Origin: a virus
Reading direction: 5' to 3' (one strand)
DNA: 41,208 nt
Virus record (IMG/VR): IMGVR_UViG_3300009526_000021
Coordinates: 1 to 41,208 of that record
Below the pieces are notes generated by a model. The model was given only the letters and a program-made list of their open reading frames with translations, did not search any database and was not told where the DNA came from. The translations under genes and the position numbers were made by a program. Shown here piece by piece: positions 5,354 through 38,950 of this stretch (positions are counted from its first letter, which is position 1; each line of letters begins with the position of its first letter).

Positions 5354-5746
5354 CTACTTTTTGGCTTTTTCAAGTGAGCGACCACCAAAGTATGCACCAA
5401 TCACAGTTATCAATACTAATTGTAATAGGTCTGTCCATTTTGCTTCGACGACAAAGTTAATAACTCCTGCGTCAATAAAGATTAATAATACAGTACTTAT
5501 CACTAAAAATATTAACACTAATGGTCTAACATTTTTACTCAACCAAGAATCAGACTTCATATCTGCTGACCATCTTGAAGAAATTTCCTTCTCCATGTTA
5601 GTCTCATAGTTAGCTATTAACTCTTTTATTTTTAATTCAGCGGCCAGTTTTTCTTCTTTTGAGGTGTGTAAGTTGTCTATAACTCCACCAACACTCTTCA
5701 CTAATTCACCTGCTCCTGCTGAAAATATTTTTCCTAATATACTCAT
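5354..5746 (-). CDS. Holin of the three-TM / gene-transfer-release type
   Basis: The protein has 130 residues. After an amphipathic N-terminus (residues 1-25, GKIFSAGAGELVKSVGGVID) and a charged helix, two strong hydrophobic segments are seen at about 74-92 and 105-121, ending in a basic tail (GGRSLEKAKK). The motif SWLSKNVRPLVLIFLV, in which a Trp-Leu and Arg-Pro precede the first TM helix, is typical of the holin family called 3TMs holin. Such proteins permeabilise the inner membrane so that endolysin can reach the wall. An M15 endolysin-like gene lies 1.2 kb upstream in the same transcription direction, giving a split lysis cassette. Confidence 0.78.
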   Translation of the reverse strand: MSILGKIFSAGAGELVKSVGGVIDNLHTSKEEKLAAELKIKELIANYETNMEKEISSRWSADMKSDSWLSKNVRPLVLIFLVISTVLLIFIDAGVINFVVEAKWTDLLQLVLITVIGAYFGGRSLEKAKK

Positions 5747-6939: not shown

Positions 6940-7407
6940 TTACATGCTTCTATGTTCGTAAATAGTTCTACCGTTCTTCTTTAGTGCTACTGTTAGCTTC
7001 TTTCTATTTGGACGATGAGTTACATAACTTACATGTATCCAATTAGGATTATTATCATCACCAAACTCCCATATAAGCTGATCAAAAATTAAATTGTCTT
7101 TTATATAATGATACATTTCAGCATTTGTTTTATATTTAAACGTATCATCTAAATCTAAAGCTTGACCTTTCATATGTTGAGAATTCTTAGATCCACCTAT
7201 TGCTGTATTAACAGGTTCTCCTCTAAACATACTAGTAATTTTTATTGGACCTCCCACCCATTCTCTCAATGGTTCAAACAAGTGTTCAGCTATTTCATGC
7301 ATGCACTTCAATTGCTCTGGCCCAGGTGTGTTATCTAAACCTCTTCTTAGAGCAGTATTACTGTGCATACCTTCTTTGTAACTTATATGTGGACTTATCT
7401 TTTTCAT
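6940..7407 (-). CDS. M15-family peptidase (endolysin candidate)
   Basis: The zinc-peptidase core is clear: SQHMKGQALDLD at residues 76-87 gives the SxHxxGxAxD signature (H78 and D85 as ligands), and NWIH at 122-125 gives the third ligand H125 next to the expected Trp; E114 is a candidate general base. Family members (peptidase M15, D-Ala-D-Ala carboxypeptidase type) cut peptidoglycan cross-links. I choose ATG at 7407 (155 residues) and not the longer 7509 start, because 7407 lies 4 nt after the preceding TAG stop and is preceded by AGAGG, while the longer start would overlap that gene by about 100 nt. No signal peptide is seen, so release would depend on the holin. Confidence 0.85.
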   Translation of the reverse strand: MKKISPHISYKEGMHSNTALRRGLDNTPGPEQLKCMHEIAEHLFEPLREWVGGPIKITSMFRGEPVNTAIGGSKNSQHMKGQALDLDDTFKYKTNAEMYHYIKDNLIFDQLIWEFGDDNNPNWIHVSYVTHRPNRKKLTVALKKNGRTIYEHRSM

Positions 7408-7411
7408 ACCT

Positions 7412-7777
7412 CTATGAGAATATACCATACTCCACAATAGTATTTGCAGTTTGTGCGTGTACTTTAATATCTGCTGCAGTAGACCAAGGCAACCATGCCC
7501 ACTCTCCACCTTGTATGATCAAATGATCACCAGTTGAAAAAGTTACATATAAGTAGTTACCAGCTGTAGTGTCGCAGTTTCTTAAATATACATATGTACC
7601 TGTAGAATATTCACCGTTAACTGCAAGTACTGTTGCTGCGCCCGCAGACGTGCCTGCAATATCTTTTCTTTGTACACCACCTTCAGTAACAGTTAAAGAG
7701 TTAGTTGTCTCTGAAGACAAACTATCTGTAGTTAAATCAGTAGATGTTAAAATTAATTTTGCTTTTAATGTTGCCAT
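7412..7777 (-). CDS. Small beta-rich virion protein, paralogue A
   Basis: This 121-residue protein and its neighbour at 7813-8196 align along their whole length. Both start MAxLxAxLxLTSTD, then a TDSLS motif; both have a central YVYLxN and a Trp near residue 95, and both end xxxEYxIF. No signal peptide or catalytic motif is present. The size, beta-rich composition and paralogue pairing suggest a small capsid- or tail-decoration protein or a fibre tip subunit. It ends in TAG, with the M15 peptidase starting 4 nt later. The function is not known; the duplication itself is what the sequence shows. Confidence 0.65.
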   Translation of the reverse strand: MATLKAKLILTSTDLTTDSLSSETTNSLTVTEGGVQRKDIAGTSAGAATVLAVNGEYSTGTYVYLRNCDTTAGNYLYVTFSTGDHLIIQGGEWAWLPWSTAADIKVHAQTANTIVEYGIFS

Positions 7778-7812
7778 TTTTATTTATTTTTAATTGTTAA
7801 TAATTATTTTTA

Positions 7813-8196
7813 CTACGCTTCAAATATTGCATACTCTATTATAGGTGTTCCTGATGCTGCATCTACCCAAAGATAATCGTTTTCTCCATAAGGAAAGAAC
7901 ATCCATTCGTTTGGACCTAACACTGCAAATGCTGACCCAACAGAACCACTACTGTCTTCTTTTATTACTATTTTTTCTGCTGCGTCAGTACTTAAATTTT
8001 TAAGATAAACATATGCTTTCTTGTCTGTAGAGTCCAAAACACCTACTGGTATCTTAGAATCTGTTGTGCTTGTTGTGTATCTTCCTATTGCTTGCTCATC
8101 TCCAGTTGCTAGTAAGCTTGCTGTCTGATTGATACTTAAGGAATCTGTATGCCAGTCTGTGCTGGTTAACGTTAATCTTGCTGATAATTTTGCCAT
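7813..8196 (-). CDS. Small beta-rich virion protein, paralogue B
   Basis: The 127-residue product is the paralogue of the gene that follows it. Shared features are the LTLTSTDxxTDSLS start, the KAYVYLKNLSTDAAEK block (matching GTYVYLRNCDTTAGNY in the other copy), the EWMFFPYGEND block (matching EWAWLPWSTAAD) and the IIEYAIFE end. Divergence is strong outside these blocks, so the duplication is not recent. The start is preceded by an A-rich leader without a Shine-Dalgarno sequence, as for most genes here. I infer a structural role because it sits among virion and envelope genes. Confidence 0.65.
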   Translation of the reverse strand: MAKLSARLTLTSTDWHTDSLSINQTASLLATGDEQAIGRYTTSTTDSKIPVGVLDSTDKKAYVYLKNLSTDAAEKIVIKEDSSGSVGSAFAVLGPNEWMFFPYGENDYLWVDAASGTPIIEYAIFEA

Positions 8197-8210: not shown

Positions 8211-10382
8211 TTATTTGTTATTAATTTTTACTTGTCTAGTCACACTTCCATCATCATATATATATAATATAATTTGATTCTTAATATCAACTACAGGCCT
8301 ACCTAATAAATCTGTAGTCATTATTAAATTTTTATTTTCTGCTCGTTTAGGTAACGAAGTGATCCAATTACTTGAGCAATGTTCATATGTTAATTGACAG
8401 ATATTGTCCCATTCATTAGCACAGCAATACTCATCTACTTCTATAGTCCAAGCGTAGCAGGCGTCATTTAACCAATAAGGTAAACCAGGACCAGTAATAC
8501 AACCAGCATCATAGAGACAGCTAAGACTGTCAGACGTATTAGCAATTGGATTAAAGTTATAGGCTCCTTGGTCCATACAACCTTGAACCACAGATATACA
8601 TGAATTATTTTCAGTATTAGCCAGCGAATCATAGTTAATAGCAGTACTGTCAGTACAACCATAAATGTAAGCGATACAACTAAAGTCTTCTGTATTAGCT
8701 GTTGGATTGTAATTAAGGGCACTTGGATCAGTGCAACCATAAGTAAAAGTAACGCAAGTATTATTATCGACATTGGCTAAGGGATTAAAATTAAACATTA
8801 TACTATCAGTACATCCATATATAGGAAGCACACAACTAAAATCATCTGTATTACAGCTATCACAGAAGTTTAAGGCTATTGGATTTGTACACCCTAACAG
8901 TACTCCTATACATGTAGAGTTATCTGTATTTGCTAATGGGTCGTAATTAAATGCTGCTGTGTCCATACACCCATAAAGATAAGGTATGCATGAATTATTA
9001 TCTGTGTTGGCCGTTGGGTCATAATTAAATTGAGACGCATCCATACATCCAAGTATAACTGGAAGACAAGAGGTATCCTCAACATTAGCTAAAACATTAT
9101 AATTAAATGCTAAAGGGTCTGTGCATCCATAAACAACTCCAATACAACTACCATCATCAGTATTTGCTAGTGAGTCGTAATTAAATGCTAATTGGCTCAT
9201 ACAACCATATATTATAGCAATACAAGTATCTGGAACATTAGCGTTAGGATTGTAGTTAAATGCTAAAGGCTGCATACACCCTGTTACAATTGCTATACAT
9301 GAGCCAGTAAGCTCTGTGTTAGCTAAAGGATTGTAGTTAAGCGCTAGCGGATTCATACATCCTAAAATAACTAAAGTACTACAAGATCCATTATCATAAT
9401 CATAATTAGCGCTGTATTCTAAATAAACAGGATTTGTACACCCTGGATTGTAATAGCAACTAACATCATCTGTGTTTGCTAAACTATCATAGTTAATAGC
9501 TGTTGGGTATGTACATCCAAATATCTTTTCAATACATAAATTACCACAATAAGTTGATGTTTTATATTTAAACAAAGGCTGTATAAAAGGAGCTAATACT
9601 TCTATCATTATATCTCCTAAAGGATTTGTTAATTTAAAGCCACAATGAGAAGCTGTTAAAGAAGCTTGTTGTGAAATGTAAAACTTAAACTCGACCTCCA
9701 TTGGTGAGTTTAGATTTATTATAAAGTCTTGTGTATATAAAGCAGTATCTATAGTATAGTACCACGTATTAGTATCTTGTTTGACTTCTAAGTACGATGA
9801 TTGCCATCCATCGCCTATCAGATCATTGAGTGTTAGTATATAATCACAATTAGGTATCAATGCCATTGTATTAGCTACTGGGTCATAGTTATACATACTA
9901 TCGTCTATACATCCAAATACTTTTAAAGTATTACATGAACCGTCGTCTGTATCAGCTAAAGGGTTAAACTCTACATACATGTGATCCATGCAGCCCATGA
10001 CGGGTGGGCAAGCATCAGATACAAAAAAGTGCATTGAATCATTACCAAAAGCAGGATCTGTACCAAACACAAGAGTGTCATTACATTGTTTAACATAATA
10101 AGATCCATCTAAACCGCCCCACATAGCCCCATTTAATCCATCACCATAACTATCATATATTGTAAATACTAAATTACCTTCTGGCAACATAACAGGTATT
10201 ACCATAGACTGATAATTAACAGCACTATAATAAGGTCCATCAGAAGCAACTATAGTTCCAGTCGTATCTTTTATATCCCAAGATGTTTCTGACATATATT
10301 GATCTAAATAAATATGTACAGACGATGGAACTTGTCCAAATACAGTAAGTGGTAATAATAGTAATAATAGTAGTTTCTTCAT
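8211..10382 (-). CDS. Secreted Cys-repeat surface protein with T9SS-like C-terminal domain
   Basis: Starting at ATG 10382 (1 nt after the upstream TAA, in preference to ATG 10394) the protein begins MKKLLLLLLLPLTVFGQ, a clean signal peptide with the Gln after the cleavage site common in Bacteroidota. It carries YDSYGDGLNG and IGDGWQS blocks, then about 15 repeats of some 21-25 residues of the form GC(T/M)DPxAxNYxPLANTDDxSC. A short module with WTIEVDEYCCANEWDNIC follows, and the end is DLLGRPVVDIKNQIILYIYD and then DGSVTRQVKI. Flavobacterial cell-surface proteins carry these repeats, the CC-WD-C module and this type of ending, which resembles the type A sorting domain of the type IX secretion system. 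All are host-style parts in a phage gene. Function is unknown; surface display or release is inferred. Confidence 0.78.
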   Translation of the reverse strand: MKKLLLLLLLPLTVFGQVPSSVHIYLDQYMSETSWDIKDTTGTIVASDGPYYSAVNYQSMVIPVMLPEGNLVFTIYDSYGDGLNGAMWGGLDGSYYVKQCNDTLVFGTDPAFGNDSMHFFVSDACPPVMGCMDHMYVEFNPLADTDDGSCNTLKVFGCIDDSMYNYDPVANTMALIPNCDYILTLNDLIGDGWQSSYLEVKQDTNTWYYTIDTALYTQDFIINLNSPMEVEFKFYISQQASLTASHCGFKLTNPLGDIMIEVLAPFIQPLFKYKTSTYCGNLCIEKIFGCTYPTAINYDSLANTDDVSCYYNPGCTNPVYLEYSANYDYDNGSCSTLVILGCMNPLALNYNPLANTELTGSCIAIVTGCMQPLAFNYNPNANVPDTCIAIIYGCMSQLAFNYDSLANTDDGSCIGVVYGCTDPLAFNYNVLANVEDTSCLPVILGCMDASQFNYDPTANTDNNSCIPYLYGCMDTAAFNYDPLANTDNSTCIGVLLGCTNPIALNFCDSCNTDDFSCVLPIYGCTDSIMFNFNPLANVDNNTCVTFTYGCTDPSALNYNPTANTEDFSCIAYIYGCTDSTAINYDSLANTENNSCISVVQGCMDQGAYNFNPIANTSDSLSCLYDAGCITGPGLPYWLNDACYAWTIEVDEYCCANEWDNICQLTYEHCSSNWITSLPKRAENKNLIMTTDLLGRPVVDIKNQIILYIYDDGSVTRQVKINNK
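8521..9990 (-). repeat. Tandem Cys-bounded repeats within the secreted protein gene
   Basis: Some 15 coding repeats of GCxDPxAxNYxPLANTDDxSC type, 99-117 nt apart where they are evenly spaced. They are well diverged at the nucleotide level, so the array is old and under selection for the protein pattern. One unit (near 8860) has FCDSC in the place of YNPxA, adding two cysteines. Confidence 0.8.
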
Positions 10383-10383
10383 T

Positions 10384-10746
10384 TTAAAAATCACTCATTA
10401 GTTGGTTATCAATTTCTTCTTGTACTTCTTCTTTTGTAGCTACCATCTTAAAACTTAAATCAGCTTGGAACCTAGCTACTTCAACTCCATCTTTAAATAT
10501 TATAATAGTAGGTATAACTGCTATCTTATGTTTCTTTTGCAACTCCGTGTCTTTACTTACATCTATATATGCAGCTGTTTGAATATCTGTAAGGTCATAT
10601 GCCCACTCTACTTTATTACTCTCGTTCCACCCTGCATTAAATACTGCTATAGACATCTGCCCATACGACGCATTACTAAGTAACATAAAAAATATTATTA
10701 ACATATACATACCAAATATTTTCCAAGTTACATCAGGCTTTTCCAT
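10384..10746 (-). CDS. Exported thioredoxin-fold protein lacking the CxxC
   Basis: The protein has 120 residues. A hydrophobic segment at 11-24 ends in NASYGQ, a likely signal-peptidase site with Gln at +1, so the domain should be periplasmic. After it the thioredoxin plan is visible: strand IAVFNAGW, then NESN at 41-44 exactly where CGPC is expected, the cis-Pro loop AVIPTIIIFKDG (Pro79) and a final helix. Both catalytic cysteines are therefore replaced and no redox activity is expected. The start overlaps the previous stop (TAATG) and the next gene begins 1 nt after its stop, so it is coupled on both sides. It could serve as a binding or chaperone module for its Cys-rich neighbour; that is inference. 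Confidence 0.72.
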   Translation of the reverse strand: MEKPDVTWKIFGMYMLIIFFMLLSNASYGQMSIAVFNAGWNESNKVEWAYDLTDIQTAAYIDVSKDTELQKKHKIAVIPTIIIFKDGVEVARFQADLSFKMVATKEEVQEEIDNQLMSDF

Positions 10747-11027
10747 TATCTGTTATATAATTTATCCTCTATTCTTTCAAGAGTCTTTTTCATTTCGTCT
10801 ACATCTGATTTTGTATCCATAATAGTCTGCCTAATCATTTTATCTTTCATATCAAACTCCATACGAGTAACTTCTGGGTCTGGTGGTACTGGCATTTCCA
10901 TAGCCCTTGCTATATCAGCTTGCAGCATAAACCACATACTAACTAGTGTAAATATTAACGCTGCAATTCCTCCTAATGTTTTTATACTTAACTTTAAGGT
11001 TGTATCTTCGTTTAGTTCTTTGTCCAT
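10746..11027 (-). CDS. Single-TM coiled-coil membrane protein (spanin-like candidate)
   Basis: The product is 93 residues. A charged N-terminus (MDKELNEDTTLK) leads to one transmembrane helix at about 17-36, then a Pro-rich joint (MPVPPDPEV) and a heptad-patterned helix from about 53 to 92 (KMIRQTIMDTKSDVDEMKKT). The topology, a short cytoplasmic end with an outside coiled coil, is that of inner-membrane spanins and also of some phage membrane anchors. No lipobox is present in the gene or its neighbours, so a classical i-/o-spanin pair is not shown. It is joined by TAATG overlaps to the genes on both sides, which indicates co-translation with the exported thioredoxin-like protein. Confidence 0.65.
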   Translation of the reverse strand: MDKELNEDTTLKLSIKTLGGIAALIFTLVSMWFMLQADIARAMEMPVPPDPEVTRMEFDMKDKMIRQTIMDTKSDVDEMKKTLERIEDKLYNR

Positions 11028-11113
11028 TATTTTTTACATTTTACAGGACACCATCCTAAACATACTTTACCAAACGTTATTGCCTTAACAGCCTTACATA
11101 TAAATTTCTTCAT
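11027..11113 (-). CDS. 28-residue Cys-rich basic peptide
   Basis: A short frame from ATG 11113 reads 28 codons (MKKFICKAVKAITFGKVCLG, then WCPVKCKK) and stops with a TAA that overlaps the next start as TAATG, the same junction used by several larger genes in this region. It begins 9 nt after the stop of the outer-membrane protein gene, so the operon otherwise would have an 95-nt gap. The peptide has seven lysines, four cysteines (positions 6, 18, 22, 26) and an amphipathic hydrophobic part (IxKAVKAITF). It could bind metal, form disulfides in the periplasm, or act on membranes. The coding call rests on the perfect fit between neighbours. Confidence 0.55.
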   Translation of the reverse strand: MKKFICKAVKAITFGKVCLGWCPVKCKK

Positions 11114-11122
11114 TTTTTATTT

Positions 11123-12217
11123 TTAAAATATTATATAATTTACTCCTAGTTTAAAGTCATACCACTCTCTATTCCAATACTTATTATATTTGCCCTCTAC
11201 AAAGTATCCTAAATTTTTATTTACCTTTATACCATATATTAATCCTGCAGAATAATCATACCATTGATCCTCTGTTATGTAATTATGGTAAGAGAACTCA
11301 CTGCCATCATTGTAGTGGTACGGCATTAAATTGCCCCATGCGTGCAACCATGTGTTTTTCTTATATTTATAATAATCAAACCCAAACACTAAAGAGTGTT
11401 GAATTATCTTTTTTAACTCGCCCCTTTTCTTTTCTGTATACTCTGCTAGAACTTGAGGTATAACTACTTCTTTCCATACTTCAGCACTATTAGCAACTAT
11501 ATTTCCACTAGGATCAGTATATTCATTCGCATATAAATCATAACTATATCCTTCTTCTATAGCTAAATGCGTATAATGTAAACTACCATTATCCAACAAC
11601 CACTCTGCTAAAGGATCATATCCATAAGGCTCAGCAAGTCTATGTGCTGCGCCTATGCTAAAAGACAAGTCTGAGTTTTTCTTAACTCTATATCTTTCTG
11701 ACAATTCAAAATATTCTATATCTGCAAATCCGTCTTTTAAATATTCTACTTTAGCAGCAAATTGATTAACACAATAAGGACCATCACATGCGTCGTCAGA
11801 GCTATATCTAATAAAATGATGTTGATCTATATAGTCAACTCCTTGTTGCCTAGCATAATCGATTTCAAATAAATATTCAAATCCTTGTACTTTACCAACT
11901 GTAGCTGCATCACTGTAGTTAGACTCAGTACCGTCATAAAAAGTATTAGCTTTATTTTCATATCCAAATCTAGCTATCTTTCGTATACCAAATGTAATAG
12001 AGTAATCATAAGGAGTGTTTATAACACCTTCTTCTAATTGCCCTGAAGTAATAGCAAATGTAGATCTAGGAGATAACGATGTTCCACCGTTAACTGCTCC
12101 ATACACAGTAGAAAATTTTAATTGTTTTTTAAACTCAGATTTAAAATCAAAATCTATTTGAGCATTAACTGTAAAGCTAATTAAAAGGATTAATAAAATA
12201 TTTAGAATTTTGTTCAT
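11123..12217 (-). CDS. Predicted outer-membrane beta-barrel protein
   Basis: The 364-residue protein opens with a signal peptide (MNKILNILLILLISFTVNAQ, cleavage probably before or at Gln20). The mature part alternates polar and aromatic residues in many short strands, for example HSLVFGFDYYKYKK, NTWLHAWGNLM, LGYFVEGKYNKYW, and ends DFKLGVNYIIF with a terminal Phe, the usual recognition residue for barrel insertion by the BAM machinery. No virion homologue is recognised. It starts at a TAATG overlap with a small virion-type gene and is followed by four other envelope-directed genes. A role in altering the host outer membrane (receptor masking, exclusion of other phages, release) is inferred. 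Confidence 0.65.
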   Translation of the reverse strand: MNKILNILLILLISFTVNAQIDFDFKSEFKKQLKFSTVYGAVNGGTSLSPRSTFAITSGQLEEGVINTPYDYSITFGIRKIARFGYENKANTFYDGTESNYSDAATVGKVQGFEYLFEIDYARQQGVDYIDQHHFIRYSSDDACDGPYCVNQFAAKVEYLKDGFADIEYFELSERYRVKKNSDLSFSIGAAHRLAEPYGYDPLAEWLLDNGSLHYTHLAIEEGYSYDLYANEYTDPSGNIVANSAEVWKEVVIPQVLAEYTEKKRGELKKIIQHSLVFGFDYYKYKKNTWLHAWGNLMPYHYNDGSEFSYHNYITEDQWYDYSAGLIYGIKVNKNLGYFVEGKYNKYWNREWYDFKLGVNYIIF

Positions 12218-12513
12218 TACCCTGATACTTTCACTGCTCCACTACTATTCCATAATTGACCAGCACTTCCTGGATCCCTGGTTGGTAATGAATCTCCCAT
12301 TGTGTTTGGTAATAGAAGCTCAGCACTTATTACATATCTTCTTAACTCATCTATATCTTCTTGCATTTGTTGCATTTGATATAGCATGGCTGCTTCAGCA
12401 GGATAAGCTTCTAATGTAGTGTGATTTCCAGCGTCAAATTTAGCTTTCATTGCGGCTTTTATATCGCCTGATCTTGAATGTATTGCTTCTTGTTTTTTAC
12501 TTGCTAATGCCAT
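12217..12513 (-). CDS. Small virion-type protein with coiled coil
   Basis: The 98-residue product starts with a basic helix (MALASKKQEAIHSRSGDIKA), then a helical segment AMLYQMQQMQEDIDELRRYV that looks like a coiled coil, and ends with RDPGSAGQLWNSSGAVKVSG. The terminal xDPGxAGQLWNxxGxxKVS motif recurs, from memory, at the C-terminus of small proteins encoded near fibre genes of marine phages. The gene follows the repeat-rich fibre gene by 7 nt and its stop overlaps the start of the outer-membrane protein gene. It may trimerise and attach to a fibre. Function is otherwise unknown. Confidence 0.6.
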   Translation of the reverse strand: MALASKKQEAIHSRSGDIKAAMKAKFDAGNHTTLEAYPAEAAMLYQMQQMQEDIDELRRYVISAELLLPNTMGDSLPTRDPGSAGQLWNSSGAVKVSG

Positions 12514-12520
12514 ATTGTTT

Positions 12521-14707
12521 TTATATTAATGCTAAGGTTACTGTAGCTCCATATATGAGAATATTTGCTGCTCCAGGAGTACATTTAATTACTAAATCTT
12601 GAGTTGCTGATGAAGGTATGTTTGTTATTGCTTGGTTTGTGTTGAACGTAGCGTTTGTTGATGCGACCGCATTTGTAGAACCAGTTTGGTAGTTAAATGG
12701 TGAGATAACTGCGGCGTTAGAAGTATTAGCACTTGCGTGTACTTGAACGTATGTTACTTTGAATAGTGGTGGTATTTCCACAAATGCGTAGAAATCATCA
12801 GTAGTACCGTGCCCCCTAACTGCTAGCGTATTAGCTACAGCGTCATGAACATACGCCGGTCTTCCAGTATCAGGATTGTTCTTAAACTCATTAGGAAATA
12901 CTTTTATTGTTAGTGATTGAGTTTTAATGTGGTTACCTTCTATTGAAGCTGCTCCAGCTGCAACTCTTTCAAAAGTACAGTCAGGCTCTTCTAAACTGAT
13001 TGACCCAGTAGTTGTTACAACACCAGTTATATTTGTATTACCTTCTAATTCAATTGTAGTGGCAGCATCTAAAGTTAAAACAGTACCTTCTATATCAACA
13101 GTTGTCCCTGAAGTAATAGTTGATGCTCCTGTAACATCTATATCTAAGACACCTGCGTCTATATCAACTATAGACCCAGCATTTGCATCAGCATCTAAAT
13201 GAAAAGCAACTCCTGCTAAATGTTCAGTAATTATACGGACGTCACTAGCAGATCCTTGAGACATTATTGTTGTTTGACCCCCAGAATCAAAGTACTGTGC
13301 TCCTGCTGATGTAATGGCTGTTGCTCCCGCTACATCTACGTCTAGCCCTCCCGCAGTAGCATTTATATCTATTGCGTTAGTTCCTGTTCCTGCAGAGTTA
13401 ATTGATAGTACTTGCGCTCCTCCTCCAACTACCGCTAAAGAAAGATCTTTACCAGATCCTGTAACGTGTATGTTAGAGTCATCTGTACCATCTATAGATA
13501 TAGTAGTTCCATCTAACGATGCAGCTCCTAGTGCATTTAAATCTAAAATACCAGCATCGATTTTAACTTCTGAGCCAGCGTCAGCATTTGCAGCTATATG
13601 AAATGCAAGGCCTGCAGTGTGTTCAGTAATCATTCTTATATCACTTGCATTTCCCTGGGACATTATAATTGTTTGTCCGCTAGAGTCAAAAGTTTGAGCA
13701 CCTACTGTTGTAATGACTGTTGCTCCTTCTACGTCTACATCTAACCCACCTGCAGTGGCGTTTATGTCTATTGCATTGGTTCCTGTACCAGCTGAAGTAA
13801 GTGATAACACTTGAGCACCACCACCAACTACACCTACAGTAAGGTCTTTACCAGACCCTGTGACATTTATATTAGAATCGTCTGTTCCGTCTATAGACAC
13901 AGTAGCCGCATCTATTGTAGCAGTTCCTGTAACATCTATATCTAGAATACCAGCATCAATATCTACAATCGATCCTGCGTTTGCATTTGCATCTAAATGG
14001 AATGCTGTTCCCGCTAAATGCTCAGTGATTACTCTAACATCGCTTGCGCTCCCTTGAGCTAATATAGTAATTTGCCCGCTAGCGTCAATGGTAGATATTC
14101 CAGTTGTAGTAGTTATATGTGTAGCAGCATTAAGCGTGCTAGCTCCTGTTACATCTATGTCTAAAATACCAGCGTCAATTTGTACTTCTGAAGCTGCATT
14201 TGCGTTTGCGTCAAGGTGGAAAGCAACTCCTGCTGTGTGAGCGGTAGTTATTTTAATATCACTTGCTGCTCCTGCGGTATCAATAGTAATTGCACCTGAA
14301 GTATCTATATCTAAAGCTACAGCATCTAAATCTAAATTTCCAGATCCATCATAAGCTAATGCTTCTGTATCATCTCCAAATGTTGCTCCAGTAGCACCTG
14401 CAATTGTAACTGTAGAAGCTGCATCTATAGTAGTAGCACCATCTGAATCTATATCCAATATACCTGCATCTATATTTAATATTGAACCTGCAGTTCCATT
14501 ACATTCAATTTTAATTGCCTCTCCTGCTGTATGTTCTGAGACGATATGAATATTACTAGCAGCTCCTTCACCTGCTATATACATACTACCATCACCAATA
14601 CCAATTATATCTACATTACCATCTACTTGGAGGCCTCCCCATTTTTTTGCTGTTGTTCCTATACTACCTTCATTATCGGCTCTAGGGACTATATTTTTTG
14701 TTGCCAT
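12521..14707 (-). CDS. Repetitive tail-fibre/structural protein
   Basis: This 728-residue protein begins ATKNIVPRADNEGSIGTTAKKW, the typical 'decorated grid' start of phage fibre proteins. Residues 50-550 consist of five related units of about 45 residues with the core ASDxRxITEHxAGxAFHLxA followed by xxIDAGILDIDVTGA. Units 3 to 5 sit inside a longer duplicated block of 133 codons that also contains SIDGTDDSNIxVTGSGKDL and GTNAIDINATAGGLDVDV. The C-terminal 170 residues are non-repetitive, with one KVFPNEFKNNPDTGR stretch, and may be the head domain. Composition is rich in Ala, Thr, Asp, Gly and contains almost no Cys or Lys in the repeats. A beta-helical fibre shaft is likely. Confidence 0.72.
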   Translation of the reverse strand: MATKNIVPRADNEGSIGTTAKKWGGLQVDGNVDIIGIGDGSMYIAGEGAASNIHIVSEHTAGEAIKIECNGTAGSILNIDAGILDIDSDGATTIDAASTVTIAGATGATFGDDTEALAYDGSGNLDLDAVALDIDTSGAITIDTAGAASDIKITTAHTAGVAFHLDANANAASEVQIDAGILDIDVTGASTLNAATHITTTTGISTIDASGQITILAQGSASDVRVITEHLAGTAFHLDANANAGSIVDIDAGILDIDVTGTATIDAATVSIDGTDDSNINVTGSGKDLTVGVVGGGAQVLSLTSAGTGTNAIDINATAGGLDVDVEGATVITTVGAQTFDSSGQTIIMSQGNASDIRMITEHTAGLAFHIAANADAGSEVKIDAGILDLNALGAASLDGTTISIDGTDDSNIHVTGSGKDLSLAVVGGGAQVLSINSAGTGTNAIDINATAGGLDVDVAGATAITSAGAQYFDSGGQTTIMSQGSASDVRIITEHLAGVAFHLDADANAGSIVDIDAGVLDIDVTGASTITSGTTVDIEGTVLTLDAATTIELEGNTNITGVVTTTGSISLEEPDCTFERVAAGAASIEGNHIKTQSLTIKVFPNEFKNNPDTGRPAYVHDAVANTLAVRGHGTTDDFYAFVEIPPLFKVTYVQVHASANTSNAAVISPFNYQTGSTNAVASTNATFNTNQAITNIPSSATQDLVIKCTPGAANILIYGATVTLALI
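12960..14020 (-). repeat. 399-nt tandem duplication within the fibre gene
   Basis: Equivalent positions in the repeat core (the plus-strand TGxTCAGT block) fall at 13221, 13620 and 14019, exactly 399 nt (133 codons) apart twice. Between them the SIDGTDDSNI, GTNAIDINATAGG and ASDxRxITEH blocks recur in the same order. The exact outer limits are not set. Confidence 0.75.
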
Positions 14708-34148: not shown

Positions 34149-34481
34149 TTATAAATAATTACATATGTCGTATAAACTGTATTTTAAAGTTAACTCTTCT
34201 CCCTGTTCTATTTTTTTTATTGTTTTTAATTTTTTATAATCACTATCATCATCTTCAATTAACTCGCAATTTGCAGTTTCAGAATGATTAATAAATCCTC
34301 CTAATGGAGTTCTAATATAATCGTGTTGAAAATTTGGATCATAAACATGACTAATACCTATAACTACCTCTCCCGGAATATCTTCTTTGGCTAGAATCCC
34401 TGCTCCGTGAATTTCTGACGGACCTATCGCTAAGTATTCTGGTAGAGGGTTATAAGGTTCTTTTTCTTTACATTTTTTCAT
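34149..34481 (-). CDS. SET-domain protein (putative protein-lysine methyltransferase)
   Basis: The whole protein of 110 residues is one compact SET domain. EIHGAGILAKEDI (23-35) is the usual start, LGGFINHSETANC (60-72) supplies the NHSxxxNC motif that binds S-adenosylmethionine and forms the pseudoknot, and QGEELTLKYSLYD (93-105) supplies GEELxxxY with catalytic Tyr101. Length is close to minimal viral SET enzymes (about 120 residues), and no post-SET Cys cluster is present. It starts immediately after... the terminase stop codon is directly adjacent, with no gap, so the two are co-expressed. It lies between terminase and portal; a lysine of a virion or host protein is a possible target. Confidence 0.85.
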   Translation of the reverse strand: MKKCKEKEPYNPLPEYLAIGPSEIHGAGILAKEDIPGEVVIGISHVYDPNFQHDYIRTPLGGFINHSETANCELIEDDDSDYKKLKTIKKIEQGEELTLKYSLYDICNYL

Positions 34482-38417: not shown

Positions 38418-38672
38418 TTATTTCTTTAGTTTTCTTATTTCTATTTTAGCTTTACCATCATTAATTAGTATCTTAGCTTTAGTGGATTGTATGTTATACT
38501 TCTCTATATGCTCATCCATTCCGTACCTTGTACATAAATAAGATAAGAATACTTCTAGCTCATATGAAACTTCTTGAAATTTTTTACGTAATTCTAAAGT
38601 TTTAATAACTTCAATTTTTAAATCCTCATAATCTTTAAGACTAATAGTAACTGTTCCAGCTATAGTTTTCAT
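38418..38672 (-). CDS. Small protein of unknown function
   Basis: This 84-residue protein has an N-terminal strand (MKTIAGTVTISLKDYEDLKI), a long helix with EVIKTLELRKKFQEVSYELE, and a basic end (KAKILINDGKAKIEIRKLKK). The start overlaps the stop of the GroES-like gene as TAATG and it ends next to the winged-helix-like gene. No motif that names a family is visible. Co-expression with the co-chaperonin is clear from the arrangement. Confidence 0.55.
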   Translation of the reverse strand: MKTIAGTVTISLKDYEDLKIEVIKTLELRKKFQEVSYELEVFLSYLCTRYGMDEHIEKYNIQSTKAKILINDGKAKIEIRKLKK

Positions 38673-38950
38673 TACATTACTCCTAATACTAGATGTTCAG
38701 GAGCCATAACATAACTCTCTTCATCTATAATTACAATGTGTCCTTTTCCTGCTGGATCTAACATAACGGTATCACCCTTCTTAACCCATTGCACTTCTGG
38801 GCCAACTTCTAATACTTCTAGAATATTTGTTTTCATTGCTTCTTTAACGGAATCAGGCAGAATTATACCGCTCTCTGTTTCTTCTTTTCTTGGATCAGGC
38901 ATTATTATCCAACTCCTAACAGGTTTAAATGTGAATTTTTTCTTTGTCAT
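38672..38950 (-). CDS. GroES-like co-chaperonin
   Basis: At 92 residues this is a normal-length Cpn10. It starts FTFKPVRSWIIMPDPRKEET, has ESGIILPDSVKEA as the mobile-loop region that docks on GroEL, then ILEVLEVGPEVQWVKKGDTV, which matches the (V/L)xxVGxG...V..GD.V core of the family, and a roof-type turn (DPAGKGHIVIID). Host GroES carries the same plan; phages such as T4 (gp31) use their own version so that host GroEL folds the capsid protein. A canonical flavobacterial promoter lies directly upstream, making this the head of an operon. Confidence 0.88.
   Translation of the reverse strand: MTKKKFTFKPVRSWIIMPDPRKEETESGIILPDSVKEAMKTNILEVLEVGPEVQWVKKGDTVMLDPAGKGHIVIIDEESYVMAPEHLVLGVM

Follow-up and report, generated by a model that had tools for sequence, protein, structure and literature searches.

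A conserved gene cassette of Bacteroidota phages with a probable late role at the host envelope

Background

How phages of the Bacteroidota open the outer membrane (OM) of their hosts is poorly known, and five adjoining genes of a crAss-like phage contig may bear on that question. The window analysed here comprises the 41,208 nucleotides of IMG/VR record IMGVR_UViG_3300009526_000021. A preliminary description of its sequence proposed that these genes form a single module that rebuilds the envelope of the infected cell, with the exclusion of other phages, a change in secretion or assistance to release as possible purposes. The locus raises the questions of whether the genes form a module and what this module might do. 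Many phages in marine metagenomes carry the cassette, which is conserved as a unit and of a size that makes it amenable to testing, and it places phage proteins addressed to the host type IX secretion system (T9SS) inside a conserved gene set. For two of its families, the OM barrel and the transmembrane coiled coil (TMcc), Pfam, NCBIfam and PHROGs gave no significant match, and work on them would help to interpret hundreds of genes that lack annotation, irrespective of the function that proves right.

Gene layout of the window

All five open reading frames described between positions 8211 and 12217 are present on the minus strand (Table 1), the likely start of the Cys-repeat gene being the ATG at 10382 rather than the GTG at 10394. 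The three TAATG junctions reported are real (at 12217, 11027 and 10746), but the first joins the barrel gene to the preceding gene, outside the five; the two other junctions among the five measure 9 and 1 nt, within the range of 0 to 9 nt given. Such spacing was ruled out as evidence for a module, as it is ordinary in this genome: gaps of at most 9 nt occur at 22 of the 38 gene junctions of the window and 1-nt overlaps at 9 of the 38, so that coupling alone is uninformative. The genes are located within the block of structural genes and adjoin tail-fibre-like genes.

Table 1. Coordinates of the cassette genes and of the lysis genes in the window
Feature	Position	Strand	Properties
Outer-membrane barrel, core gene 1	11123..12217	-	364 aa, predicted 12-strand beta-barrel, signal peptide
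Cys microprotein, optional	11027..11113	-	28 aa, cationic, net charge +8
TM coiled coil (TMcc), core gene 2	10746..11027	-	93 aa, one N-terminal TM helix
Thioredoxin-fold protein (Trx), core gene 3	10384..10746	-	120 aa, exported, WNxxN
Cys-repeat protein, cargo gene	8211..10382	-	723 aa, short C-terminal sorting signal
Peptidase M15 endolysin	6940..7509	-	PF08291 E 3e-14, phrog_894 E 4e-27
Holin, GTA_holin_3TM-like	5354..5746	-	phrog_3427 E 6e-31

The three signal peptides and the single TM helix described earlier are evident on reading the sequences, the putative signal peptides ending in NAQ (barrel), YGQ (Trx) and FGQ (Cys-repeat protein). That the genes are aimed at the host envelope fits these data, every large protein carrying an export or membrane signal and one of them being predicted to leave through the host T9SS.

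Conservation and exchange of the cassette

The status of the genes as a module comes from their conservation as a set, not from junction spacing. All four large genes were found together, in one of three circularly permuted orders, at 257 of 323 IMG/VR loci, a count that includes several loci per contig (repeat views) and is not made of independent samples; at nearly all of the others, the end of the locus or of the contig falls inside the module. The genes are thus not scattered independently in relatives. There is very little doubt that selection acts on the cassette as a genuine module, maintained beyond one lineage, although the fixed five-gene unit first envisaged was not found and the core consists of barrel, TMcc and Trx.

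Phages that share mostly 14-60% identity in their portals have barrels with 66-89% identity. Lineages B and C have portals that are 14-28% identical to that of the window, and the virion genes of the window were undetected there; a median identity of at least 50% to the window is retained solely by the module, by the Cys peptide and by the M15/holin genes. With a median identity of 71% for the M15 endolysin in lineage C and of 76-81% for the holin in lineages A and B, these two lysis genes are exchanged between lineages like the module. A siphovirus and an RNR/UvsX-bearing phage likewise have the full set, another RNR-bearing lineage having the barrel-TMcc-Trx core only. The cassette is missing from 4 of 8 contigs of at least 50 kb from close crAss relatives, a rough prevalence given that the 66 portal loci are a sample. 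The location in the structural block, next to tail-fibre-like genes, would suit common virion parts, of the tail or for ejection, whose leaders are misleading. This reading is extremely improbable, since phages with unrelated virions have the genes and close relatives sharing the same virion genes lack them, and the products have clear Bacteroidota-style signal peptides ending in Q, a T9SS sorting domain and a 12-strand barrel model.

Gene-to-gene identity correlations within the module are low (mirror-tree, rho 0.07-0.31), indicating that its genes recombine and that their linkage is kept despite recombination; for the same reason mirror-tree co-evolution was unusable as evidence of contact. 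TMcc is present in 76 of 80 barrel loci, and at 299 of 300 loci no more than 60 nt separate it from Trx. The core is still intact where barrel identity has fallen to about 30%, and this across several phage lineages. Other genes come and go, namely SNase, PAP2, a small OM barrel, DUF5675 and the Cys peptide. The drift of these accessory genes would be expected if unrelated envelope genes had gathered beside the lysis region and hitchhiked together, like the lom and bor genes of phage lambda, which encode late OM proteins and lie near tail and lysis genes, as the cassette does. We consider such a collection of morons highly unlikely in view of the close TMcc-Trx spacing, the depth to which the core is kept and the linkage maintained despite recombination. 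Moreover, lom and bor are single genes of temperate phages, whereas the cassette is a conserved multi-gene set that is apparently rare in host genomes.

No close relatives of the barrel, Trx or TMcc were found by tblastn in 50,697 annotated phage records, in which the Cys-repeat protein gave repeat-level matches only.

Predicted proteins of the core

The OM barrel of the preliminary description is backed by an AlphaFold2 model with 12 strands (pLDDT 70.5), whose structural matches in Foldseek are porins and autotransporter barrels. The matches in the PDB were generic, none reaching a TM-score of 0.4 when normalised by query length, and assignment to a specific barrel family was dropped. The sequence gave no match in the PDB, no Pfam or NCBIfam family match of any kind, PorP/SprF models included, and a match to PHROGs at chance level only, whereas one BFVD model, A0A516LKJ4, matches it (E 4e-21). 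Weak PspC, Fes1 and DotU matches were likewise set aside as chance level. IMG/VR contains 429 barrel relatives, with invariant residues in the alignments (A1/A6/A10), and conservation is nearly the same in the long outward loops and in the strands (0.81-0.83), which is unlike a surface in an arms race. The barrel was found in 2 of 398 Flavobacteriales genomes, one of them the query MAG and both copies on phage-like contigs; it is therefore not a common prophage gene. A few barrel relatives have lipobox-like leaders.

Trx was modelled with a pLDDT of 81.9 (AlphaFold2) and matches thioredoxins in Foldseek (E 1e-5) and by HMMER (2vim, E 1e-10). It shares with the thioredoxin family (PF00085) the fold, the overall profile and the cis-Pro, P79 being invariant, which bears out the thioredoxin fold noted before. 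The absence of CxxC, noted as well, is correct and can be specified further: unlike that family, Trx has Asn at both catalytic positions (WNxxN), is exported and is encoded by a gene tied to a phage cassette. The NxxN aligns without gaps to the CxxC of the solved thioredoxin 2o87, and no aligned member, even at 27% identity, departs from the Asn pair, with further alterations in a few lineage-D variants. Lacking both Cys, Trx cannot carry out thiol oxidation by the usual route.

The third core protein, TMcc, has a predicted N-terminal TM helix followed by a putative periplasmic coiled coil with the conserved motif TRMEFDMKDxMIR, and its alignment (A2) contains 28 invariant columns.

The Cys-repeat cargo and type IX secretion

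The Cys-repeat protein contains about 15 GC...C repeats and 43 Cys. It had been described as secreted, in agreement with its evident signal peptide; its T9SS sorting signal had been missed. The sorting domain PF18962/TIGR04183 was detected in 6 of 41 members of the family (E 8e-12 / 5e-12) and also in L083 (E 3e-13) and L084 (E 3e-14). At the level of the family, the Sec signal peptide and C-terminal sorting domain that define a type A T9SS cargo are therefore represented. The protein of the window has a short tail only and does not match these models. All 53 C-termini of the cargo family have a tail, canonical in 6 and short in 47, and the short tails, which were set against the literature on T9SS signals (PMC5445135, PMC11285876), resemble D(L/V/I)(L/I)GR...YIYxDGxVxxK. 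From its sequence, the Cys-repeat protein is thus predicted to be a T9SS cargo that the host would export to its surface. SprA_N (PF14349) is present in both MAGs that bin module-bearing contigs, binning being weak evidence of the host. Members of the family are 626-1121 aa long, and 11 of 41 have a MAM domain.

Phage-encoded T9SS cargo has precedents. Such cargo is encoded by Cryophage (MT820023; Bellas et al. 2020, PMC7468147), for which superinfection exclusion or inter-strain competition was proposed, and by crAss-BACON phages (de Jonge et al. 2019, PMC6949934). As in the cassette, these are phage proteins with a T9SS sorting domain, destined for export by the host and varying between relatives. 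The cargo is there an endoglucanase, GH39, PA14 or BACON, and the portions of the reports consulted mention neither a barrel nor a TM coiled coil or thioredoxin linked to it. The cargo of the window differs in belonging to a conserved cassette, of which we found no published description, and in its mostly shortened family signal.

The co-occurrence of the four large genes in three circular orders could mean that barrel, TMcc and a Trx-like chaperone fold, export or anchor the cargo, which would be an enzyme or a surface adhesin for aggregation or particle attachment, as the MAM domains suggest. Host T9SS cargoes often neighbour an OM barrel (PorP/SprF), and a protein with 43 Cys lies here beside one with the fold of a disulfide enzyme. 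Yet the barrel matches no Pfam or NCBIfam model, those of PorP/SprF included, and Trx lacks the two Cys needed for the usual thiol oxidation. The core also persists without detectable cargo nearby in G052 and in lineage D (0 of 80 loci), where a search of the contigs with PF18962, a model that also misses short tails, gave no match. A cargo-display platform is hence decidedly unlikely.

Lysis genes and spanins near the cassette

In the siphovirus, the gene order is tail, barrel, TMcc, Trx, cargo, M15 and holin, overlapping or nearly so. An Amidase_2 endolysin gene lies 30 nt after Trx in the RNR/UvsX-bearing phage, the M15 gene overlaps the start of the barrel gene in G440, and the holin gene follows Trx within 10 nt in G052. 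A lysis gene is found within 3 kb at all 72 lineage-D loci at which one was recognised, and at a median of 2 kb in lineage C; 7 of 16 loci in A and 24 of 36 in C contained no recognised lysis gene and fall outside this comparison.

Judged by its sequence, TMcc has the features of an i-spanin, a small type II inner-membrane protein with a periplasmic coiled coil. As in the two-component spanins (lambda Rz/Rz1, T4 PseT.3/PseT.2), a small N-in single-TM protein with a predicted periplasmic coiled coil would have an OM partner and is encoded near endolysin and holin. An o-spanin is a lipobox lipoprotein encoded by an embedded, overlapping or adjacent gene, whereas the neighbouring OM protein is here a 12-strand barrel with an ordinary signal peptide, and Trx is added; no family match to the described spanins in PHROGs was found. 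Kongari et al. reported that 91 of 677 phages (13%), including Bacteroides and Croceibacter phages, are without recognisable spanins, and suggested that an OMP could serve as o-spanin (PMC6139136).

A separate lipoprotein is encoded near a lysis gene in 23 of 80 lineage-D loci, where it is a more orthodox o-spanin candidate, and in 1 crAss locus. A heuristic scan of the circular 95-kb crAss genome G028 detected no lipoprotein spanin pair. Where relatives lack the module (G055, G056 and G058), no obvious spanin replaces it, an observation that weighs neither for nor against a role in lysis. Since about half of the close crAss relatives (4 of 8 contigs) have neither the cassette nor an obvious spanin there, crAss phages can lyse their hosts without the cassette.

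Proposed function

As the set is kept together, is swapped between unrelated marine Bacteroidota phages and is usually close to lysis genes, its probable target is the host envelope, at a late stage of infection. We regard it as a horizontally exchanged late-gene envelope set, probably of virulent Bacteroidota phages. Among the three roles first suggested (blocking other phages, modifying secretion, helping release), the evidence leans to release without settling the choice.

We tentatively prefer, at somewhat less than an even chance, a trans-envelope complex that acts at lysis and replaces or assists spanins. TMcc would reach from the inner membrane into the periplasm and contact the barrel directly or through the redox-dead Trx as a binding adaptor. 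Once the endolysin has removed the cell wall, the complex would disrupt or detach the OM, doing the work of spanins with a barrel instead of a lipoprotein as outer anchor, and the T9SS cargo may add to the effect at the outer face, as may the cationic Cys peptide in the phages that encode it. The nearby lysis genes, the joint exchange with M15/holin and the placement of parts in inner membrane, periplasm and outer membrane lean towards this role, as do the negative scan for a lipoprotein spanin pair in G028, the suggestion by Kongari et al. of an OMP as o-spanin, the conserved barrel loops and the rarity of the barrel in Flavobacteriales genomes. Against it stand the absence of the cassette from half of the eight crAss contigs, the loci with no recognised lysis gene, the median distance of 2 kb in lineage C, the separate lipoprotein of some lineage-D loci and the variable adhesin-like cargo of 630-1120 aa, which is not needed for OM breakage. 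In addition, morons also gather near lysis genes, and a survey assigns only unimolecular spanins to Bacteroidetes phages (PMC12596118). A more specific version, in which the core is a lipoprotein-free OM disruption machine (barrel as anchor, dead Trx as adaptor, TMcc as arm, the T9SS protein from outside) and a Bacteroidota-specific, traded equivalent of spanins, seems rather unlikely.

The main rival to a role in lysis is surface remodelling or superinfection exclusion, itself somewhat unlikely, in which the barrel complex and the T9SS-displayed Cys-repeat protein would coat or alter the infected cell and stop adsorption or injection by other phages. The envelope signals on every large protein, the partly MAM-bearing cargo of variable length, predicted to be displayed on the surface, and the rapid exchange between lineages, which fits an arms race, are consistent with it, as is the role proposed for the Cryophage cargo by Bellas et al. 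2020 (PMC7468147). However, the outward loops of the barrel are conserved rather than diversified, no cargo was found near the core in lineage D, a position in the late block near lysis genes is late for exclusion, and a coat needs neither a TM coiled coil nor a dead thioredoxin.

The optional Cys peptide

Disruptins, of which that of phage phiKT is the archetype, are small phage peptides that act on the OM in spanin-less phages (PMC12819732). The 28-aa peptide has the charge and size of antimicrobial peptides, but differs from disruptins in being Cys-rich and optional. It is real and conserved rather than a chance ORF, as 18 distinct sequences were found, each of them no more than 230 nt from a module gene, and the remainder of the loci examined contained no further copy. 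The peptide occurs in 13 of 79 crAss loci, with a pN/pS of 0.62 over 12 distinct sequences, and the net charge of the 18 peptides ranges from +1 to +10.

Co-occurrence and gene order among relatives

A search of IMG/VR with the outer-membrane barrel retrieved 429 relatives. Among the best 80 of these 429 loci, the TM coiled-coil protein (TMcc) was found in 76, the exported thioredoxin-fold protein (Trx) in 71 and the Cys-repeat protein (CysRep) in 67, and searches starting at Trx or TMcc gave the same picture. The conserved co-occurrence proposed for this region was borne out over 323 loci, of which one contig can supply several: the four large genes occur together in three orders, barrel-TMcc-Trx-CysRep (205 loci), TMcc-Trx-CysRep-barrel (44) and CysRep-barrel-TMcc-Trx (8), which are circular permutations of a single order, and in nearly all remaining loci the module is interrupted by the locus or contig end. 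The distance between TMcc and Trx is at most 60 nucleotides in 299 of 300 loci. The genes of this cassette are co-selected. One locus (L039) carries two barrels, one on each side of the set, as a duplication-and-loss intermediate would.

Other arrangements were also seen. In a contig of RNR-bearing phages (lineage D), the barrel is flanked by two TMcc-Trx pairs, one Trx having lost its NxxN motif. In about 11 loci the module also contains a PAP2-family phosphatase, a lipid-phosphate enzyme within an envelope cassette, usually placed between Trx and CysRep; a staphylococcal-nuclease-like protein lies in or near it in 27 loci, a similar protein being directly 3' of Trx in L084; and a second small exported outer-membrane beta-barrel, present in 15 loci, sometimes sits between the module barrel and TMcc.

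The window (41,208 bases, a single IMG/VR virus record) has a portal, large terminase and major capsid matching PHROG families of the same functions (phrog_6547, 6681 and 11589), and its portal shares about 30% identity with the portals of gut crAss-like phages. The five ORFs were recovered at the positions claimed in the preliminary description, in the minus-strand late block where every window gene discussed is located. All three TAATG junctions exist, but one of them links the barrel to the preceding gene. Tight coupling had been taken as a sign of a module; gaps of at most 9 nt are found at 22 of the 38 window junctions and 1-nt overlaps at 9, and, such junctions being ordinary in this genome, coupling is no evidence of a module, which comes instead from the relatives.

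Coordinates of the features in the window and in related loci
Feature	Sequence	Position (strand)	Remark
Barrel	window	11123-12217 (-)	
Gene preceding barrel	window	12217-12513	
Cys peptide	window	11027-11113 (-)	28 aa
TMcc	window	10746-11027 (-)	
Trx	window	10384-10746 (-)	
CysRep	window	8211-10382 (-)	start probably ATG 10382, not GTG 10394
Two small proteins	window	7412-8196 (-)	121 and 127 aa, MAxLxAxLxLTST...
M15 endolysin	window	6940-7509 (-)	
Holin	window	5354-5746 (-)	
SET-domain protein	window	34149-34481 (-)	110 aa; PF00856, E 3e-8
GroES-like chaperonin	window	38672-38950 (-)	PF00166 Cpn10, E 2e-9
Barrel with two TMcc-Trx pairs	L499	5311-7905	
PAP2 phosphatase	L066 (and relatives)	12092-12619	PF01569
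Staphylococcal-nuclease-like protein	L036 (and relatives)	11029-11397	PF00565
Protein similar to the L036 one	L084 (and relatives)	2277-2630	directly 3' of Trx
Second small barrel	L051 (and relatives)	11527-11946 (-)	OMP_b-brl match, below cut-off
Lipoprotein	L480	8615-9046	overlaps M15 gene
Lipoprotein	L443	8550-8960	overlaps M15 gene

Exchange between phage lineages

The crAss portal was present on 39 of 50 contigs tested. Across 13 contigs, portals were 14-98% identical (mean 34%) and barrels 66-89% (mean 74%), barrel identity exceeding portal identity in 71 of 78 contig pairs; among the exceptions is L003, with a portal 98% and a barrel just 81% identical. The only window genes whose median identity reached 50% in crAss lineages B and C are those for the barrel, TMcc, Trx, CysRep, the Cys peptide, the M15 endolysin and the holin; a metallophosphoesterase and two small proteins were at 32-34%, and none of the window virion genes looked for was detected. 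The cassette moves between lineages as the endolysin and holin do. Of eight contigs of at least 50 kb picked by a window-like portal, four carry the barrel and four lack it, which makes the cassette an accessory element.

Among phages other than crAss, siphovirus contigs (tape-measure matches) contain a packed run of tail, barrel (34% identity), TMcc (72%), Trx (37%), a 179-aa cargo, M15 and holin genes. L083, a phage-like contig from a Flavobacteriales MAG, carries RNR genes and gives matches to a DnaB-like helicase and a UvsX-like recombinase; its gene order is CysRep-barrel-TMcc-Trx, with an Amidase_2 endolysin 30 nt beyond Trx. Of 398 Flavobacteriales genomes, two had barrel matches; both matches lie on phage-like contigs, and one of the two genomes is the query MAG. 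Lineage D (e.g. G440) has the barrel, TMcc and Trx with M15 close by; of 80 loci, 77 have TMcc and 73 Trx, a lysis gene lies within 3 kb in all 72 with a recognised one, and no CysRep was detected within ~6 kb of the core. The conserved core is therefore these three genes, CysRep and the Cys peptide being optional, so that of the single five-gene module first proposed the co-selected set stands in reduced form. The PF18962 model, which also misses short tails, found no T9SS domain on 36 lineage-D contigs.

Predicted properties of the proteins

The AlphaFold2 model of the barrel has 12 strands (pLDDT 70.5); Foldseek retrieved generic porins and autotransporters, and no family was found in Pfam, NCBIfam or PHROG. 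Its outward loops are about as conserved as its strands. TMcc has a single TM helix followed by a coiled coil, with a conserved TRMEFDMKDxMIR. AlphaFold2, Foldseek and HMMER agree on the thioredoxin fold of Trx, in which N41 and N44 align to the CxxC positions. Alignment A11, which extends to members of 27% identity, shows no variation at these two residues or at the cis-proline P79; some lineage-D copies diverge further from the NxxN site.

A canonical T9SS type A sorting domain was found in 6 of 41 CysRep members, and also in L083 and L084. Of 53 complete C-termini, 6 have this domain and 47 a short DLLGR...YIYxDGxVxxK-like tail, which by analogy may plausibly function as a sorting signal. 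Eleven CysRep members carry a MAM domain. For the 28-aa peptide there are 18 distinct conserved forms, mostly strongly cationic and found only beside module genes. In some barrels and cargoes (L045, L048, L032, L010 and, in G028, L418) the leader is of an alternative type containing a lipobox-like SC..PK.CC.Q segment; signal peptides appear exchanged among module genes.

T9SS cargo encoded by phages is already known from Cryophage (PMC7468147) and crAss-BACON phages (PMC6949934). The combination of barrel, TM coiled coil, NxxN thioredoxin and T9SS cargo was not found described in the open-access literature, to which the search extended.

Possible role at lysis

The cassette parts are predicted for the inner membrane, periplasm and outer membrane, and in several phages unrelated to one another lysis genes lie near the cassette. 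We tentatively suggest that it acts at lysis, where a trans-envelope complex would disrupt or free the outer membrane, the barrel replacing the o-spanin lipoprotein. Kongari et al. counted 91 spanin-less phages among 677, Bacteroides and Croceibacter phages included, and raised the possibility of an OMP serving as o-spanin (PMC6139136). In the circular crAss genome G028, no lipoprotein spanin pair was seen in a heuristic scan. Spanins and disruptins (PMC12819732) are the nearest functional kinds, but the cassette was not classed as a spanin because it does not provide the lipoprotein required of that class.

Against a role at lysis, half of the close relatives are without the cassette and no obvious substitute was seen, and many loci have no recognised lysis gene within range. 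One survey describes the spanins of Bacteroidetes phages as exclusively unimolecular (PMC12596118), and a separate lipoprotein lies close to a lysis gene in 23 lineage-D loci. The big adhesin-like cargo is unneeded for lysis. Surface remodelling or superinfection exclusion is somewhat less likely than a role at lysis, and a cargo-display platform is improbable. The remaining probability is shared by hitchhiking morons, virion components and other possibilities.

The lineage-D lipoproteins, of 120-145 aa and near the M15 endolysin gene, share a segment like THVLAVTxxGDTLxLP and had no match in PHROGs; they are possible o-spanin candidates. The window also encodes a SET-domain protein between terminase and portal, and a chaperonin. 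The two small window proteins of 121 and 127 aa look paralogous; their family numbers 69 copies over 42 related loci, often in tandem pairs or triplets.
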